Part shown: in pieces, positions 2,963 to 7,551 of the stretch
How the letters are laid out: every line of letters begins with the position of its first letter
Position numbering within the stretch: the stretch's first letter is position 1
From: Alloacidobacterium dinghuense
Lineage (GTDB): Bacteria > Acidobacteriota > Terriglobia > Terriglobales > Acidobacteriaceae
Direction: 5' to 3'
DNA length: 64,000 nt
NCBI RefSeq assembly: GCF_014274465.1
Contig: NZ_CP060394.1
Location: 2,046,001-2,110,000 of the forward strand
Position numbers and translations under genes: made by a program
The notes under the pieces: model-generated
Databases searched by the model: none
The model's input: the letters and a program-made list of their open reading frames with translations, nothing else
Told to the model about the DNA's origin: nothing

Positions 2963-3400
2963 TCACACGCGGAAGTAGTCAGGCCGCCAGTTCTGAATCT
3001 TCTTCTTAATATCCATTGGCTTCAAATTGTCTCTTAGTGTTTCTTCGACGAGTCGAGGGATTTCTGCGTCGGATGCGAATCTTAGCGCGACGAGTTGATG
3101 TTCTGTCAGTTCAGGAATACGCAATCGCAGCGGCTCTGGAAGCAGCGCCGCGAGGCGCATCCGCTCTTCCAGACGAATGAGCCTATCCTGCACCTTAATC
3201 GGATTGATGCGCGTGAGGAATGCCAGCACGAGGATTGCGATGGAGAGAAGAACCATCCATGCGACCGCCAGATCGGGATGTCTTACGAGATACACGATGG
3301 CCAGAATCAAGTTCGTAATCAGTATCGGGATTAGAAAGAAGTGAAAGGGAGCGTGCCTGCGCTTGTAATTTGTGTAGCTCTGGACACTGTTCTCACTCAT
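2963..3400 (-). CDS. DUF6526-like small membrane protein
   Basis: 145 residues. A short hydrophilic N-terminus is followed by two adjacent transmembrane helices (about residues 22-40 and 45-64), then a charged, probably cytoplasmic C-terminal half with ELTEHQLVALRFASDAEIPRLVEETL. The overall shape and the LTxxQLxALRFASD stretch recall DUF6526, a family of unknown function seen in Acidobacteriota and Bacteroidota; this assignment is from memory. It is transcribed divergently from the bufferin operon and ends next to the uup-like gene. No function can be assigned. Confidence 0.7.
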   Translation of the reverse strand: MSENSVQSYTNYKRRHAPFHFFLIPILITNLILAIVYLVRHPDLAVAWMVLLSIAILVLAFLTRINPIKVQDRLIRLEERMRLAALLPEPLRLRIPELTEHQLVALRFASDAEIPRLVEETLRDNLKPMDIKKKIQNWRPDYFRV

Positions 3401-3494
3401 GTTTGTTCATCCTATAGAAAAGTATTACGCGAGTCATGAATCCGGCGGGATTTGCGATTTTACAACCTGTGACATCTTTTTACCGCCAAATGCT

Positions 3495-3520
3495 GTAACC
3501 TTTTCAACGTCCCATATTCT
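3495..3520 (+). promoter_or_regulatory. Candidate ECF-type promoter of the bufferin operon
   Basis: GTAACC at 3495-3500 lies about 100 bp before the bufA start. It matches the -35 element recalled for SigF of Caulobacter, which drives bufferin genes there. A 16-nt spacer leads to TTCT (3517-3520), which is not a good match to a known -10. The idea rests on position and one hexamer. A sigma/anti-sigma pair at the end of the same operon makes an ECF promoter here plausible. Confidence 0.3.
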
Positions 3521-3597
3521 TATGGGCAGCAGGTCTCCCACCGGCAACATCCGTTGCCTGGTCTTAGGCTTGCAAATCCATGGAGGAATGACAACGT

Positions 3598-3894
3598 ATG
3601 AAGCACTCAATGAAGACCTTGATGGTTGCCGCGGCAGTTTCAGGCTTACTCGGCGGTGCCGCAACCGTGCAGGCAGCAGCCTCGTCAACCAGCGCCACTT
3701 CGGTGGTCAAGGTGGGCAAAGCGTCGTTTGCAAAAAGCGCAATGGATCAGGACACGAGCAAGCACTCGTGTAAAGGCAAGAATGATTGCAAAGGACAGGG
3801 TGGTTGCAAGAGCAGCGACAACGGCTGCAAAGCCAAGAATAGCTGCAAAGGCAAAGGCGGCTGCGCAACGGACGGCTCGAAGATGCCGAAGTAG
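3598..3894 (+). CDS. bufA: Bufferin-type RiPP metallophore precursor (BufA-like)
   Basis: 98-residue exported peptide precursor. Residues 1-26 form a Sec signal peptide (predicted cleavage after VQA), followed by a Ser/Ala/Thr-rich leader-like stretch. The C-terminal part holds six Cys at 58, 64, 70, 77, 83 and 89, arranged as two 13-residue modules, CKGKNDCKGQGGC and CKAKNSCKGKGGC, joined by KSSDNG. There are no other Cys. In known bufferins an MNIO enzyme with its partner converts Cys to 5-thiooxazoles, giving a periplasmic metal-binding peptide linked to copper stress. A good GGAGG (3582-3586) precedes the ATG. The MNIO gene follows after a hairpin. Modification and metal are inferred from family and context; the KN(D/S)CKG repeats may place it in the BufA2 rather than the BufA1/DUF2282 subgroup. 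Confidence 0.85.
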   Translation: MKHSMKTLMVAAAVSGLLGGAATVQAAASSTSATSVVKVGKASFAKSAMDQDTSKHSCKGKNDCKGQGGCKSSDNGCKAKNSCKGKGGCATDGSKMPK

Positions 3895-3906
3895 TTCTTT
3901 CTGGTC

Positions 3907-3935
3907 AGGGCCATGCGCAGTCAAGGCATGGCCCT
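3907..3935 (+). terminator. Intercistronic hairpin between bufA and bufB (leaky terminator or processing site)
   Basis: Perfect 10-bp stem AGGGCCATGC / GCATGGCCCT with a 9-nt loop, followed by TTCTACTT. It starts 12 nt after the bufA stop and ends 25 nt before the bufB ribosome binding site. The weak T-run suggests partial termination or a 3'-end stabiliser, either of which would give more bufA than bufBCD message. This fits a substrate peptide needed in excess over its modifying enzyme. Confidence 0.75.
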
Positions 3936-3971
3936 TTCTACTTGGTAGCTTTCTATTCTGGGAGAACGGCA

Positions 3972-4844
3972 GTGCCTGCGAATCGCTTTAACGGGTTTAC
4001 CGAATACGGTGTCGGGATTGGATTACGCATTCCGCACTACCGGCACATTCTGAATAAGAAGCCGGTGGTGGATTGGTTCGAGATTATTTCCGAGAACTAC
4101 ATGGTCGATGGCGGGCGACCACTCGAAGTGCTCGATCAGATTCTCGAACAGTACAACGTGGTGCAGCACGGCGTGTCGATGTATTTTGGCTCGGTCACCG
4201 ATCCGGATCCGGAGCATCTGAAGCGACTGAAGCGGCTGGTGAAGCGCACGAAGACGCCATGGCTAAGCGACCATCTTTGCTGGGGATCTGTGGATGGGCG
4301 CTACACGCACGATCTGCTGCCCATGCCGTACACGTGGGAAGCGGTGAAGGTTACTGCAGAGCGCATTAAGAAGGTCCAGGATTTCCTTGAGATTCCTGTT
4401 GTCGTCGAGAATGTTTCGAGCTACGCCGAATATCATGTCTCCGAGATGACGGAGTGGGAATTTCTGAACGAGGTGGTTGAGCGGGCGGACTGCGGCATTC
4501 TGCTCGATGTGAATAACATCTACGTTTCGTCGCAGAATCACAGCTTTGATCCGATCACCTACGTCAATGCTGTTCCCGCTGAGCGCATTGCGCAGATTCA
4601 CATCGCGGGACATTCGAAGTTTGAGAAGTACATTCTGGATACGCATGACCATCCGGTGCTGGAACCAGTCTGGCAACTTTATGCGCGAACTATTGAGCGC
4701 GCCGGGCCGACGGCCACGTTGCTTGAGTGGGATGACAACATTCCCTCCTTCGAAGAAGTCCACGCAGAAGCTCTGAAGGCGAAGAAGTTTCTGATCACTG
4801 CAACGAAGGCTGCAGCACCCGAACTTGCGGAGGCAGCGCGATGA
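3972..4844 (+). CDS. bufB: MNIO (DUF692) peptide-modifying enzyme BufB
   Basis: 290-residue TIM-barrel enzyme of the multinuclear non-heme iron oxidative (MNIO) family, which modifies Cys residues of partner peptides using a di- or tri-iron centre and O2. Family motifs are all present: GVGIGLR near residue 13, HGVSMYFG (His66), SDHLCWG (Asp100, His101), VENVSSY (Glu146, Asn147), LLDVNNIYVSSQNH (Asp179), HIAGHS (His210, His214), DTHDHPV (Asp223, His225) and LLEWDD (Glu252). GTG at 3972 follows GGGAG at 3960-3964 with good spacing; a TTG at 3942 would lie almost inside the preceding hairpin. The 3' end overlaps bufC by four bases (ATGA), implying coupled translation. Confidence 0.92.
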   Translation: MPANRFNGFTEYGVGIGLRIPHYRHILNKKPVVDWFEIISENYMVDGGRPLEVLDQILEQYNVVQHGVSMYFGSVTDPDPEHLKRLKRLVKRTKTPWLSDHLCWGSVDGRYTHDLLPMPYTWEAVKVTAERIKKVQDFLEIPVVVENVSSYAEYHVSEMTEWEFLNEVVERADCGILLDVNNIYVSSQNHSFDPITYVNAVPAERIAQIHIAGHSKFEKYILDTHDHPVLEPVWQLYARTIERAGPTATLLEWDDNIPSFEEVHAEALKAKKFLITATKAAAPELAEAAR

Positions 4845-5716
4845 GCGAGCTTCTGGAAATACAGCGCCGGGTGGCGGCTGCGATCATGCATCCGTTGACG
4901 CAGCAGGAGACGATGCTCCGCAAGCGAAACGATGGCACTTCGAACAAGAGCGAGGCCGATGCCATCATCAAGCCGAATGACAGGCTTTCTTCGTTTGAGC
5001 GGCTGGAGATTTACAACCGCCAATACTGGTTTCGTCTGTACTCGTCGTTTGAAGAAGATTTTCCGGGATTGATGGCCGTGATCGGACGAAAGAAGTTCGA
5101 CGTGCTCACGCGCGCTTACCTTACCGACTTCCCCTCCCAGTCATTCTCGTTGCGCAATCTCGGATCGCAGCTTGAACATTGGCTGCTATCGCATCGCGAA
5201 TACATCGAACCACGCGCGGAACTTGCACTGGATATGGTTCGCATTGAATGGGCGCATATTGAAGCTTTTGATTCCGCTTCTGATGCATTGATTGACGCGG
5301 ATGATCTGGCGGGCATCCACGATGGATCACAGCTGCATCTTCAACCATATCTGCGGGTTCTCCAATTACAGTATCCAGTCGACGATTTGATTATCGAACT
5401 GCGCAGCGAGAGCGGGAGCAGCGATTCAAGCAGCAATAATGCAAGCATTGCACGCAAACGCAGGAAGGCTCGCCACGTTGCGGCGCTGGAGCCGGAAGAA
5501 ATTTACCTCGCCCTGCATCGTCACGAAAACTCGGTGTATTACAAGCGTCTCAGTCGCGAAGACTATCGGCTTTTGTCTGCGCTGATGGCAGGAGAACCGA
5601 TCGGCAAAGCTATCGACACAGCGTTTGAAGGCAGTGAGATTCCTGAAGAAGAACGGGCATCGTTTTTGCAGGTAGCGTTTCAAACGTGGTCTTCTCTGGG
5701 CTGGTTCACTCGATAA
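4841..5716 (+). CDS. bufC: DUF2063 family BufB partner protein BufC
   Basis: 291 residues, no signal peptide or membrane segment. The N-terminal third (ELLEIQRRVAAAIM, then LSSFERLEIYNRQYWFRLYSSFEEDFPGL) is the DUF2063 putative DNA-binding-like domain, which in MNIO systems acts as the substrate-recruiting partner of the enzyme. The C-terminal region is less conserved and carries a Ser/Asn-rich stretch near residue 190 and a basic KRRKARH patch. Its start overlaps the bufB stop. In known bufferin operons BufC is needed with BufB for Cys modification; here that role is inferred from order and family. Confidence 0.88.
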   Translation: MSELLEIQRRVAAAIMHPLTQQETMLRKRNDGTSNKSEADAIIKPNDRLSSFERLEIYNRQYWFRLYSSFEEDFPGLMAVIGRKKFDVLTRAYLTDFPSQSFSLRNLGSQLEHWLLSHREYIEPRAELALDMVRIEWAHIEAFDSASDALIDADDLAGIHDGSQLHLQPYLRVLQLQYPVDDLIIELRSESGSSDSSSNNASIARKRRKARHVAALEPEEIYLALHRHENSVYYKRLSREDYRLLSALMAGEPIGKAIDTAFEGSEIPEEERASFLQVAFQTWSSLGWFTR

Positions 5717-5734
5717 TGAAAGGCAAGAATTGCT

Positions 5735-6235
5735 ATGAGTATGCAACCCATGTCTGTTTCCGCGAAAAGAAGGCCTTCATTGATTAGAAGACTCAGCGGT
5801 TACTACTGCTACTTTAAGCACTATGCCGCGCGGCTGGACTCTCCCTTTCTGCTGTTGGTGCGACTTTACTGGGGTTGGCAGTTTGCACAGTCGGGCTGGG
5901 GTAGACTACACAACTCGCACGCAGTTGAGTTTTTTGCGAGCCTTGGCATCCCGGCACCTGGGATCGTGGAGCCGGCGGTCTCATGTCTTGAGCTGTTTGG
6001 CGGCATTCTTTTGATTGTCGGACTGGCGTCGCGACTCACGGGTTTTCTGCTGGCGTGCGACATGGCTGTCGCGTACCTGACCTCAGACCGTGATGCGCTG
6101 CGCTCGATCTTCAGTGATCCGGGCAAGTTCTATAATGCGGATCCGTTCACTTTCCTTTTCGCGTCCCTCATCGTGCTCATCTTTGGAGCAGGCTTCTTCT
6201 CTCTCGATTACTTCTTCTCGCATCGTAAGCGGTAG
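5735..6235 (+). CDS. bufD: DoxX family membrane protein (BufD position)
   Basis: 166 residues with four predicted transmembrane helices and typical DoxX features: LLLVRLYWGWQFAQSGWGRL in helix 1, SLGIPAPG in the first loop, and a second helix with CLELFGGILLIVGLASRLTGFLL. DoxX proteins are quinone-linked or poorly characterised inner-membrane proteins that often accompany MNIO/RiPP metallophore genes. It lies 18 bp after bufC and three bases before the sigma factor, so it is clearly co-transcribed. A role in redox balance at the membrane is possible but not shown by the sequence. Confidence 0.87.
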   Translation: MSMQPMSVSAKRRPSLIRRLSGYYCYFKHYAARLDSPFLLLVRLYWGWQFAQSGWGRLHNSHAVEFFASLGIPAPGIVEPAVSCLELFGGILLIVGLASRLTGFLLACDMAVAYLTSDRDALRSIFSDPGKFYNADPFTFLFASLIVLIFGAGFFSLDYFFSHRKR

Positions 6236-6237
6236 CC

Positions 6238-6894
6238 ATGACAATGCCTCAGGCTGCAGCAGGATTACAGCAGGAGCGCGAAGCTGCGCTCATTGCTGCG
6301 ATTCTTGCTGGAGACCGCGAGAAGTTTCATGACCTGATCCGTCCGTATGAGCGGCAGGTCTATCTCACCGCGCTTACTTTAGTAAAGAATGAGACGGAGG
6401 CAGAAGACGTAGCGCAGGAAGCGATTCTGCGTGCGTATCGCAAGCTAGCCGGCTTTCGTGGCGATGCAAAGTTCAGTACATGGCTGATCGCCATCACGCT
6501 CAACGAGGCCCGCTCCCGGTTGCGGGAAGAAAAACGAGCCATCGTTGATTCTCTCGATGACCATGATGCGCAAGAAGGCGACTATACACCGGCTGCGCTG
6601 ACTGACTGGCGTGAAGTTCCTTCTGAAGTGCTTGAGCGGCAGGAGATTCGCGCGCTGATGCAGCAAGCCGTTGCAGAGCTGCCGGACACGTTTCGCCAGG
6701 TTGTGATCCTGCGGGACATGGAAGAGCTGAGCGTGAATGAAACTGCGGAAGCGCTGGGGATTTCTGTTGCGTTGGTAAAGGTTCGCCTGCACCGCGCTCG
6801 CCTGCTGCTGCAAAAAAGGCTAGTACCGCTGTTGCGTATTGGGTGGAAGGCAAAACCAAAAAGTGGAATGCTAAGGAGGTTGCCGTGGTTCTGA
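6238..6894 (+). CDS. ECF RNA polymerase sigma factor of the bufferin operon
   Basis: 218 residues. Region 2 spans about residues 25-95 (RPYERQVYLTALTLVKNETEAEDVAQEAILRAYRKL, then GDAKFSTWLIAITLN). Region 4 spans about 140-195 (LPDTFRQVVILRDME, then VNETAEALGISVALVKVRLHRARLLL). There is no extra C-terminal domain. It starts three bases after the DoxX stop and overlaps the zinc-finger anti-sigma gene. Its place as fifth gene of the metallophore operon suggests autoregulation: metal or redox stress frees the sigma factor, which transcribes bufA onward. That loop is an inference from context; Caulobacter bufferin genes are known to be ECF-controlled. Confidence 0.9.
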   Translation: MTMPQAAAGLQQEREAALIAAILAGDREKFHDLIRPYERQVYLTALTLVKNETEAEDVAQEAILRAYRKLAGFRGDAKFSTWLIAITLNEARSRLREEKRAIVDSLDDHDAQEGDYTPAALTDWREVPSEVLERQEIRALMQQAVAELPDTFRQVVILRDMEELSVNETAEALGISVALVKVRLHRARLLLQKRLVPLLRIGWKAKPKSGMLRRLPWF

Positions 6895-7139
6895 ACTGCA
6901 GACACGTATGGGACCGCATCTCCGACTACATCGATGGATCGCTCGATCCTTCTGTGCGCGCCGATGTAGAGCAGCACCTTGCACACTGCGAGATCTGCTC
7001 GGCGGTTCTGGATTCAACGCGCAACATCATCATCCTGATGGCGGATGATCGCGTCTTCGAGTTGCCTGTTGATTTCAGCCAACGTTTGCACGCGTGTCTG
7101 GATCTTGTGCTGGCAACGGAATCACCTGACCCAGTTTAG
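6885..7139 (+). CDS. Soluble zinc-finger anti-sigma factor
   Basis: 84 residues from the GTG at 6885, which has a near-perfect AAGGAGG at 6873-6879 inside the end of the sigma gene; an upstream in-frame GTG (6843) lacks this. It contains the zf-HC2 zinc motif His31-x3-Cys35-x2-Cys38 (HLAHCEIC) plus Cys5. Unlike most ECF anti-sigma factors it has no transmembrane helix, so it is probably a cytoplasmic ZAS-type regulator in which metal or thiol chemistry at the zinc site could release the sigma factor. The 10-base overlap with the sigma gene implies coupled, stoichiometric synthesis. Last gene of the operon. Confidence 0.85.
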   Translation: MVLNCRHVWDRISDYIDGSLDPSVRADVEQHLAHCEICSAVLDSTRNIIILMADDRVFELPVDFSQRLHACLDLVLATESPDPV

Positions 7140-7287
7140 AAGCACACTGTGAGACAAAAGCGGATGGTGGGTCATCGGATGCACCCATCATTCCCTCTAG
7201 GCTTCGCTTTACAGCTCACATTTCGTTTGATCCAATTCCGGCGGTTTGCTTACAAGGCAGGTGAACAGGCCTGGTGCCTACTAATGC

Positions 7288-7551
7288 TCAATCGACCGCA
7301 TCATCATTCGAAGAGGTTGAGCGCGAGTTCTCGCACTCCGTAGAATCGGATTCTTTGCCACCAAGCCAGTGCCAAGAAACGGCTGAGAGAGCGACAAGAA
7401 TGATAAGAACAATGAGCAGCTCGATCAAATGCAGGCCCGGCGCGGAATTGACTGGACGAGTAGTAAAGTCAGTAAGTGCCAGGGCCGCGATGACGCCGCC
7501 CCAGGACCAGAGAATGATAAGTTTTCCGACATGCCATTTTTGGATGGACAT
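7288..7551 (-). CDS. Small membrane protein of unknown function
   Basis: 87 residues with two hydrophobic helices (about 10-27 and 40-63) and a hydrophilic, acidic C-terminal tail rich in Ser, Asp and Glu. It starts five bases after the end of the upstream exported protein and is probably co-transcribed with it. No family recognised. Coding status rests on the operon-like spacing and hydrophobic pattern, so it is less certain than its neighbours. Confidence 0.5.
   Translation of the reverse strand: MSIQKWHVGKLIILWSWGGVIAALALTDFTTRPVNSAPGLHLIELLIVLIILVALSAVSWHWLGGKESDSTECENSRSTSSNDDAVD

Follow-up and report, generated by a model that had tools for sequence, protein, structure and literature searches.

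A predicted soluble anti-sigma switch for a bufferin-2 operon and msrP in Acidobacteriaceae

The closest described systems, cited here from the parts of the source papers that deal with them, are gene clusters controlled by extracytoplasmic function (ECF) sigma factors. In Caulobacter, SigF, which is paired with the six-helix membrane anti-sigma factor NrsF, drives the Buf1 operons and yedY from the promoter GTAACC-N16-CGAA (PMC3511200). The ECF16 group has the consensus (T/C)GTAAC-N17-CGAA and controls msrPQ-like genes in Brucella (PMC8315932), and in Sinorhizobium meliloti RpoE7 acts through TGTAAC promoters on a DUF692 cluster (PMC6180224). In Haemophilus influenzae, RpoE2 and the ZAS protein HrsE control an MNIO-DUF2063-DoxX cluster and MsrAB (PMC7907618). 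Buf2 clusters, in the portion of a survey that covers them, were found to have no sigma or NrsF genes (PMC12452194). Here we describe a six-gene operon, bufA-bufB-bufC-doxX-sigma-anti-sigma, on the + strand at positions 3598 to 7139 of a 64,000-nucleotide stretch (the window) of Alloacidobacterium dinghuense, whose genome is a single 6.27-Mb contig. By sequence comparison the cluster is of the bufferin-2 (Buf2) type, and unlike the surveyed Buf2 clusters it has both a sigma and an anti-sigma gene. On the same grounds we think it likely that this pair is a dedicated stress switch with a soluble anti-sigma factor, serving the Buf2 bufferin and the reductase MsrP, in parallel to proteobacterial SigF-NrsF but with a different sigma and a different anti-sigma. 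The features of the locus are as follows.

3494 to 3522, + strand: predicted ECF promoter TGTAACC-N17-TCTTA upstream of bufA (pattern search)
3598 to 3894, + strand: bufA, Buf2-type precursor of 98 residues with six Cys and a Sec-like signal peptide (by eye), matching NF050166 BufA2
3907 to 3935, + strand: hairpin with a 10-bp stem between bufA and bufB, a possible partial terminator or mRNA end
3972 to 4844, + strand: bufB, MNIO bufferin maturase, GTG start; NF050167 357.6 bits (cut-off 310), PF05114 (MbnB_TglH_ChrH) 366 bits
4841 to 5716, + strand: bufC, DUF2063 partner protein (PME-type 1), overlapping bufB by ATGA; PF09836 46.7 bits (cut-off 27.2)
5735 to 6235, + strand: doxX, DoxX-family membrane protein; PF07681 59 bits (cut-off 23.6)
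6238 to 6894, + strand: ECF sigma factor of the buf-associated clade; PF04542 (sigma region 2) 58.4 bits, and PF08281 (region 4)
6885 to 7139, + strand: soluble-looking ZAS-type anti-sigma factor of about 84 residues, C-X25-H-X3-C-X2-C; PF13490 zf-HC2 44.1 bits

The six genes, their order on one strand and the single hairpin had been read from the DNA in an initial annotation, and all are present as described there. Apart from the 77 bases between bufA and bufB, neighboring genes overlap or almost touch. Judged from the profile scores, homology of the operon's proteins to their assigned families is far beyond chance, including the match of BufB to an MNIO profile, the failure of which the initial annotation had named as one of its refuting outcomes; the doxX product scores 49.2 against the HvfX model, below its cut-off of 80.

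Because many relatives begin with MV(L/I)xC at the same place, the anti-sigma start is more probably the GTG at 6885, which lies behind AAGGAGG (6873 to 6879), than the alternative at 6843. The product is short and shows, by eye, no transmembrane stretch, and its cysteines and histidine fall within the ZAS definition C/H-X23-26-H-X3-C-X2-C (quoted in PMC7907618), the C, H, C and C columns being kept in 39 or 40 of 41 aligned rows with gaps in the rest. By analogy with ZAS proteins, we would expect it to bind zinc and its cognate sigma. Solubility and this motif are shared with RsrA/ChrR-type anti-sigma factors, from which the family differs by a conserved C-terminal module around DSTRNxxxLxADxRVFELPxGFSxRLH; its score against the RsrA model is 30.2, below the cut-off of 62.5. 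In a profile search the NrsF models gave no match at E ≤ 1 and zf-HC2 was matched instead, while the best match of a PDB sequence search, to sirtuins at E 0.0079, was of no use as a relative. The window protein has a further, third Cys close to its C-terminus, which is not conserved in the 41-row alignment and so is an unlikely sensor residue.

The initial annotation had proposed looking for the same gene neighborhood elsewhere. We examined the best 80 of 573 loci found by a BufB search, of which 78 have a recognizable bufA and 59 of these, with at least 3 kb on both sides, were taken as complete. This sigma together with this anti-sigma recurs at 25 of the 59 complete loci, and a sigma match without this anti-sigma is found at a further 6. 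Among the 30 linked loci that we used for promoter counts, the order seen in the window occurs in 10; the pair lies upstream on the opposite strand in 9 (7 with doxX), upstream on the same strand in 10 (2 with doxX) and downstream without doxX in 1. Locus L030, with partial sigma and anti-sigma matches at a contig edge, was not counted as linked. In a tree of 68 sigmas, one clade with support 100/99 holds 40 buf-associated sigmas, of which 31 are from linked loci, among them the window, eight from unlinked genomes and one from a second copy in the A. dinghuense genome, and the 21 paralogues from this genome that were used in the tree fall outside it.

Also outside this clade are the sigmas of seven loci that have a sigma only. 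Five of these loci are verrucomicrobial and their sigmas share one clade, although in one of the five, L056, the sigma is more than 4 kb away; the two sigmas from Acidobacteriota share a different clade, and some of these long branches are unsure. ECF sigmas of three kinds thus probably adjoin Buf2 clusters. In the verrucomicrobial Buf2 clusters L066, L074, L076 and L079, the gene after an unrelated ECF sigma encodes a larger protein that by eye seems to contain a membrane helix and may be another anti-sigma; in L048 and L061, a third ECF sigma type stands beside Buf2, with a neighbor that has a zinc-finger-like start and membrane helices (by eye).

The promoter upstream of bufA does not figure in the initial annotation. 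We saw TGTAACC-N17-TC first at both buf modules of this genome, that of the window and the second copy, and afterwards in relatives. The widened pattern GTWACY-N17-19-TCNNA lies upstream of bufA in 28 of the 30 linked loci, where shuffled sequences average 0.16 of 30, and in 10 of 28 unlinked complete loci; it is found on the reverse strand in 5 of the 30, to which divergent units may contribute. A sigma-70 scan of 3350 to 7400 gave a single site, at 7317. Where linked loci have a separate sigma unit, the pattern, by then fixed, precedes all nine doxX-headed units, with reverse-strand hits at 4 of 20 units. In the same fixed form, the promoter is also associated with the anti-sigma in trans. 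Of 30 unlinked genomes (28 with complete loci and two chosen from 11 incomplete ones, L049 and L064), 11 have the promoter, and 7 of these encode an anti-sigma of at least 70 bits elsewhere, versus 1 of the 19 that lack the promoter (p = 0.0011); this threshold was set after seeing the scores, and raising it to 90 bits gives 7 of 11 versus 0 of 19. All eight sigmas beside these anti-sigmas fall in the buf-associated clade, and the promoter stands just upstream of two doxX-headed and two sigma-headed units among the eight, the other four lacking it. These patterns indicate that the operon is probably under the control of its own sigma, and if this sigma reads the promoter upstream of bufA, the operon would amplify its own regulator.

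The same switch may reach beyond the operon. One of the 18 strict promoter hits in the genome precedes msrP, whose product matches the curated model of the periplasmic methionine-sulfoxide reductase MsrP at 476.2 bits (cut-off 207). The gene is found in 21 of the 30 linked and 12 of the 30 unlinked genomes. After L202, whose contig begins inside msrP, had been dropped, 20 linked genomes with legible DNA before msrP remained, and in 16 of them the fixed pattern was present within the 300 bases upstream of the gene. Among unlinked genomes it was present there in 2 of the 4 that bear the bufA promoter and in 0 of the 8 that do not. Reverse-strand counts in the three groups were 0, 0 and 1, respectively, and the shuffle mean was 0.16 of 21; the contrast of 16/20 with 0/8 has p = 1.6e-4, ignoring relatedness. 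The third base of the -35 element agrees between bufA and msrP in all 15 genomes with both sites (10 A/A and 5 T/T). The five T/T genomes form one sigma subclade, set apart by seven alignment columns, one of which has Met in place of the Val seen in 31 of 34 others and presumably lies in the region-4 recognition helix. As one clade amounts to one event, this covariation is suggestive only. Together, these sequence patterns suggest that the switch also turns on msrP, elsewhere in the genome. The description of the operon as self-contained in the initial annotation therefore holds for its own sigma/anti-sigma pair but not for the predicted regulon, which extends to the distant msrP, nor for the genome, which has a second, broken copy of the module. 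In this genome, a redoxin-domain gene (CcdA-TlpA-like by eye) and a DsbD-domain gene, at loci L154 and L157, carry the same promoter pattern, shared by few relatives; as core regulon members, DsbD-like and CcdA-TlpA-like genes are weak candidates, with 3 of 25 and 1 of 4 loci, respectively.

Several observations weigh against a dedicated switch of this kind. The pattern was widened after inspection of the loci, so that the bufA count is partly fitted, and the strict form taken from the A. dinghuense genome, TGTAACC-N17-TCNNA, occurs in only 9 of the 30 linked loci. Over the whole genome, the strict pattern does not rise above background (18 hits versus 16 control hits), and such a scan is uninformative as evidence standing alone. 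The promoter precedes only 1 of 11 sigma-headed units of linked loci, 9 of the 30 linked genomes have no msrP match, the T/T promoters all lie within one clade, and BufA scores below the curated BufA2 cut-off. The relatives are not independent of one another, and many are incomplete metagenome assemblies in which absences carry little weight. Lastly, the pair is missing from 34 of the 59 complete loci, and ECF sigmas are numerous, with 30 profile matches in the A. dinghuense genome, as would be expected if the pair served general envelope stress and merely adjoined the buf genes. We consider this very improbable given the repeated linkage in several arrangements, the single sigma clade, the promoter upstream of bufA and the association of promoter and anti-sigma in trans.

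Compared with Caulobacter SigF-NrsF, a dedicated switch in A. dinghuense would share an ECF sigma with its anti-sigma, a bufferin operon together with a yedY (msrP-type) gene, and the -35 element GTAACC, and it would differ in having Buf2 instead of Buf1, a short ZAS protein instead of membrane NrsF and a -10 element TCNNA instead of CGAA. The ECF control of Caulobacter bufferins to which the initial annotation pointed is an analogy, since NrsF, a six-helix membrane protein, belongs to another family. Likewise, the system has the -35 element of ECF16 but neither its CGAA -10 element nor an NrsF/DUF1109 membrane anti-sigma. The window sigma is 22.7% identical over 181 residues to the sigma beside the S. 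meliloti Buf1-type cluster, which was compared in place of Caulobacter SigF, and close kinship with RpoE7 is not supported by this value. Haemophilus RpoE2-HrsE resembles the window system in combining a cytoplasmic ZAS anti-sigma and an ECF sigma over an MNIO-DUF2063-DoxX cluster and methionine-sulfoxide repair, whereas its precursor is of the EGKCG/oxazolin type and its sigma gene lies beside msrAB, outside the cluster. ZAS control of an MNIO cluster thus has a precedent in Haemophilus; in Acidobacteriota the ZAS gene is genetically linked to the cluster, which is Buf2, and comes with a sigma clade of its own. Among the papers listed by our literature searches, one of which was swamped by "buffering", none describes this pairing in Acidobacteria.

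A dedicated switch could work as follows. In the resting state, the small cytoplasmic ZAS protein would keep the ECF sigma inactive. By comparison with ZAS relatives, thiol-reactive stress, from copper or another soft metal or from an oxidant such as hypochlorite, would disturb the zinc site and free the sigma, which would then read the GTWACY-N17-19-TCNNA promoters upstream of bufA and msrP. BufB with BufC would oxidize BufA cysteines before Sec export, probably to 5-thiooxazoles as in relatives, and the periplasmic bufferin would buffer copper while MsrP would repair oxidized methionines. It is also quite possible, though we would hold it only tentatively, that the switch senses oxidants (hypochlorite, disulfide stress) rather than metal and that the bufferin and MsrP belong to a regulon against oxidative damage, in which the peptide is one tool. 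Oxidative stress is the usual signal for ZAS anti-sigmas, according to a passage of PMC8999054, and RpoE2-HrsE, which controls the Haemophilus MNIO cluster, is reported to be induced by HOCl and H2O2 (PMC7907618); msrP shares the bufA promoter pattern, as does a DsbD-like gene in the few loci mentioned above. On the other hand, Caulobacter Buf1 aids growth in excess copper, the experiments described in the relevant part of PMC3511200 showed no induction of SigF genes by agents that generate reactive oxygen species, and metals may also attack thiolate-zinc sites.

The biosynthetic part of the operon looks like ordinary Buf2, with a six-Cys Cys-Lys precursor adjacent to MNIO, DUF2063 and DoxX genes, as in BufA2B2C2 clusters. 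The initial annotation had proposed a profile search of bufA, which found BufA2 (NF050166, 47.9 bits, E 1.2e-12) without reaching the curated cut-off of 60. It had correctly given the Cys spacing as 5, 5, 6, 5 and 5 residues; its view that the Cys- and Lys-rich core is unusual we reject, as the same spacing (6, 6, 7, 6, 6 from Cys to Cys) occurs in 58 of 79 precursors, window included and the second bufA of the genome (L145_2nd) left out, and is the Buf2 "Cys-Lys" pattern, a class named in a passage of PMC12668002. Six Cys are given for 90% of Buf2 precursors in the survey excerpt (PMC12452194). By analogy, the BufA cysteines would be modified by the MNIO enzyme and would bind copper. A role for the peptide with a metal other than copper, or as a redox-active thiol peptide, we consider unlikely: Buf1 of Caulobacter is a copper chelator, and preliminary data give the Buf2 of that organism a similar function. 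Nevertheless, the gig operons are bufferin clusters induced by gold, fusions of MerC with a bufferin are present in mercury clusters, and a family profile search of the operon's five genes other than bufA gave no match to copper-transport or copper-sensor families.

Among the best 80 of 573 relatives, the best named match of BufB is from Acidobacterium sp. S8, with 90% identity. BufB can be aligned with both 3bww and TglH. In the alignment with 3bww it keeps the motifs HG, SDH, EN, DVNN, HIAGH, DTH and E (the last two in a weak second stretch), which we take to be the metal ligands. In this second stretch, of only 11.9 bits, BufB has Asp at a Phe position of 3bww (EWDDN versus ERDFN). Cys-Lys enzymes, in the passage that describes them, have Asp beside the catalytic Asp where Lys-Cys enzymes carry Phe (PMC12668002); the BufB residue agrees with this and we count it in favor of a Buf2 assignment. 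BufC lies below the HvfC equivalog cut-off (40.1 versus 142). Its AlphaFold2 model (pLDDT 87.7, from a 21-sequence alignment) reaches E ≤ 0.001 with only two PDB entries, 8hci and 8hi7, in both cases with chain A of the TglHI complex (TM 0.52 to 0.59, root mean square deviation 6.5 to 8.1), and 3DEE is not among the best 50 fold matches listed. Because the DUF692 enzyme in 8hci is chain D, chain A should be the partner TglI, so that the modeled BufC resembles the TglHI partner chain and would have an MNIO-partner fold.

Of 75 loci, 28 have a perfect stem of at least 9 pairs in the bufA-bufB gap, where shuffles give 0.7; the stem sequences differ. Fold energy gives a weaker signal (median z -1.67 over 76 regions; window z -0.98). 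The hairpin may tune the enzyme-to-precursor ratio, holding the enzyme below the level of the precursor.

The second buf module of the genome, at about 393.5 to 397 kb (L145), has a doxX-sigma-anti-sigma unit divergent from a four-Cys bufA. Its doxX, sigma and anti-sigma are 53, 55 and 62% identical to those of the window, with open frames, and its sigma, the best of the 29 other sigma matches in the genome, is 1.6 kb away from the one further bufA that was detected. Downstream of bufA, bufB is cut after about 47 residues and is followed by an out-of-frame C-terminal half of bufC, the two being joined by a large deletion. Four-Cys precursors occur in twelve relatives, and since nine of these have a doxX-headed sigma unit, a four-Cys precursor with a separate unit of this kind looks like a second module type; in the nine (L019, L020, L023, L026, L029, L033, L040, L041 and L058), GGG replaces the middle Cys. 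A third sigma/anti-sigma pair, without buf genes and with a stop within its sigma gene, is located about 3.4 kb beyond the second module, at about 389.3 to 390.2 kb (L195, 6267 to 7177). In the window, a DUF6526 gene (149.7 bits; 2963 to 3400, - strand) is divergent from bufA.

We see the arguments as evenly balanced on whether a bufferin with periplasmic methionine-sulfoxide repair is one recurrent stress response that has been put under ECF switches more than once, under membrane NrsF in Proteobacteria and soluble ZAS in Acidobacteriota, with the output genes and the -35 element nearly constant and the sigma, the -10 element and the sensor differing. The pair described here contradicts the survey statement that Buf2 clusters have no sigma or anti-sigma genes, and it makes the regulator, not the Cys core, the unusual part of this cluster. 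It offers a small soluble switch for bufferin control, with a predicted regulon that would tie a copper-binding peptide family to methionine-sulfoxide repair, and what bufferins respond to becomes directly testable in culturable Acidobacteriaceae.

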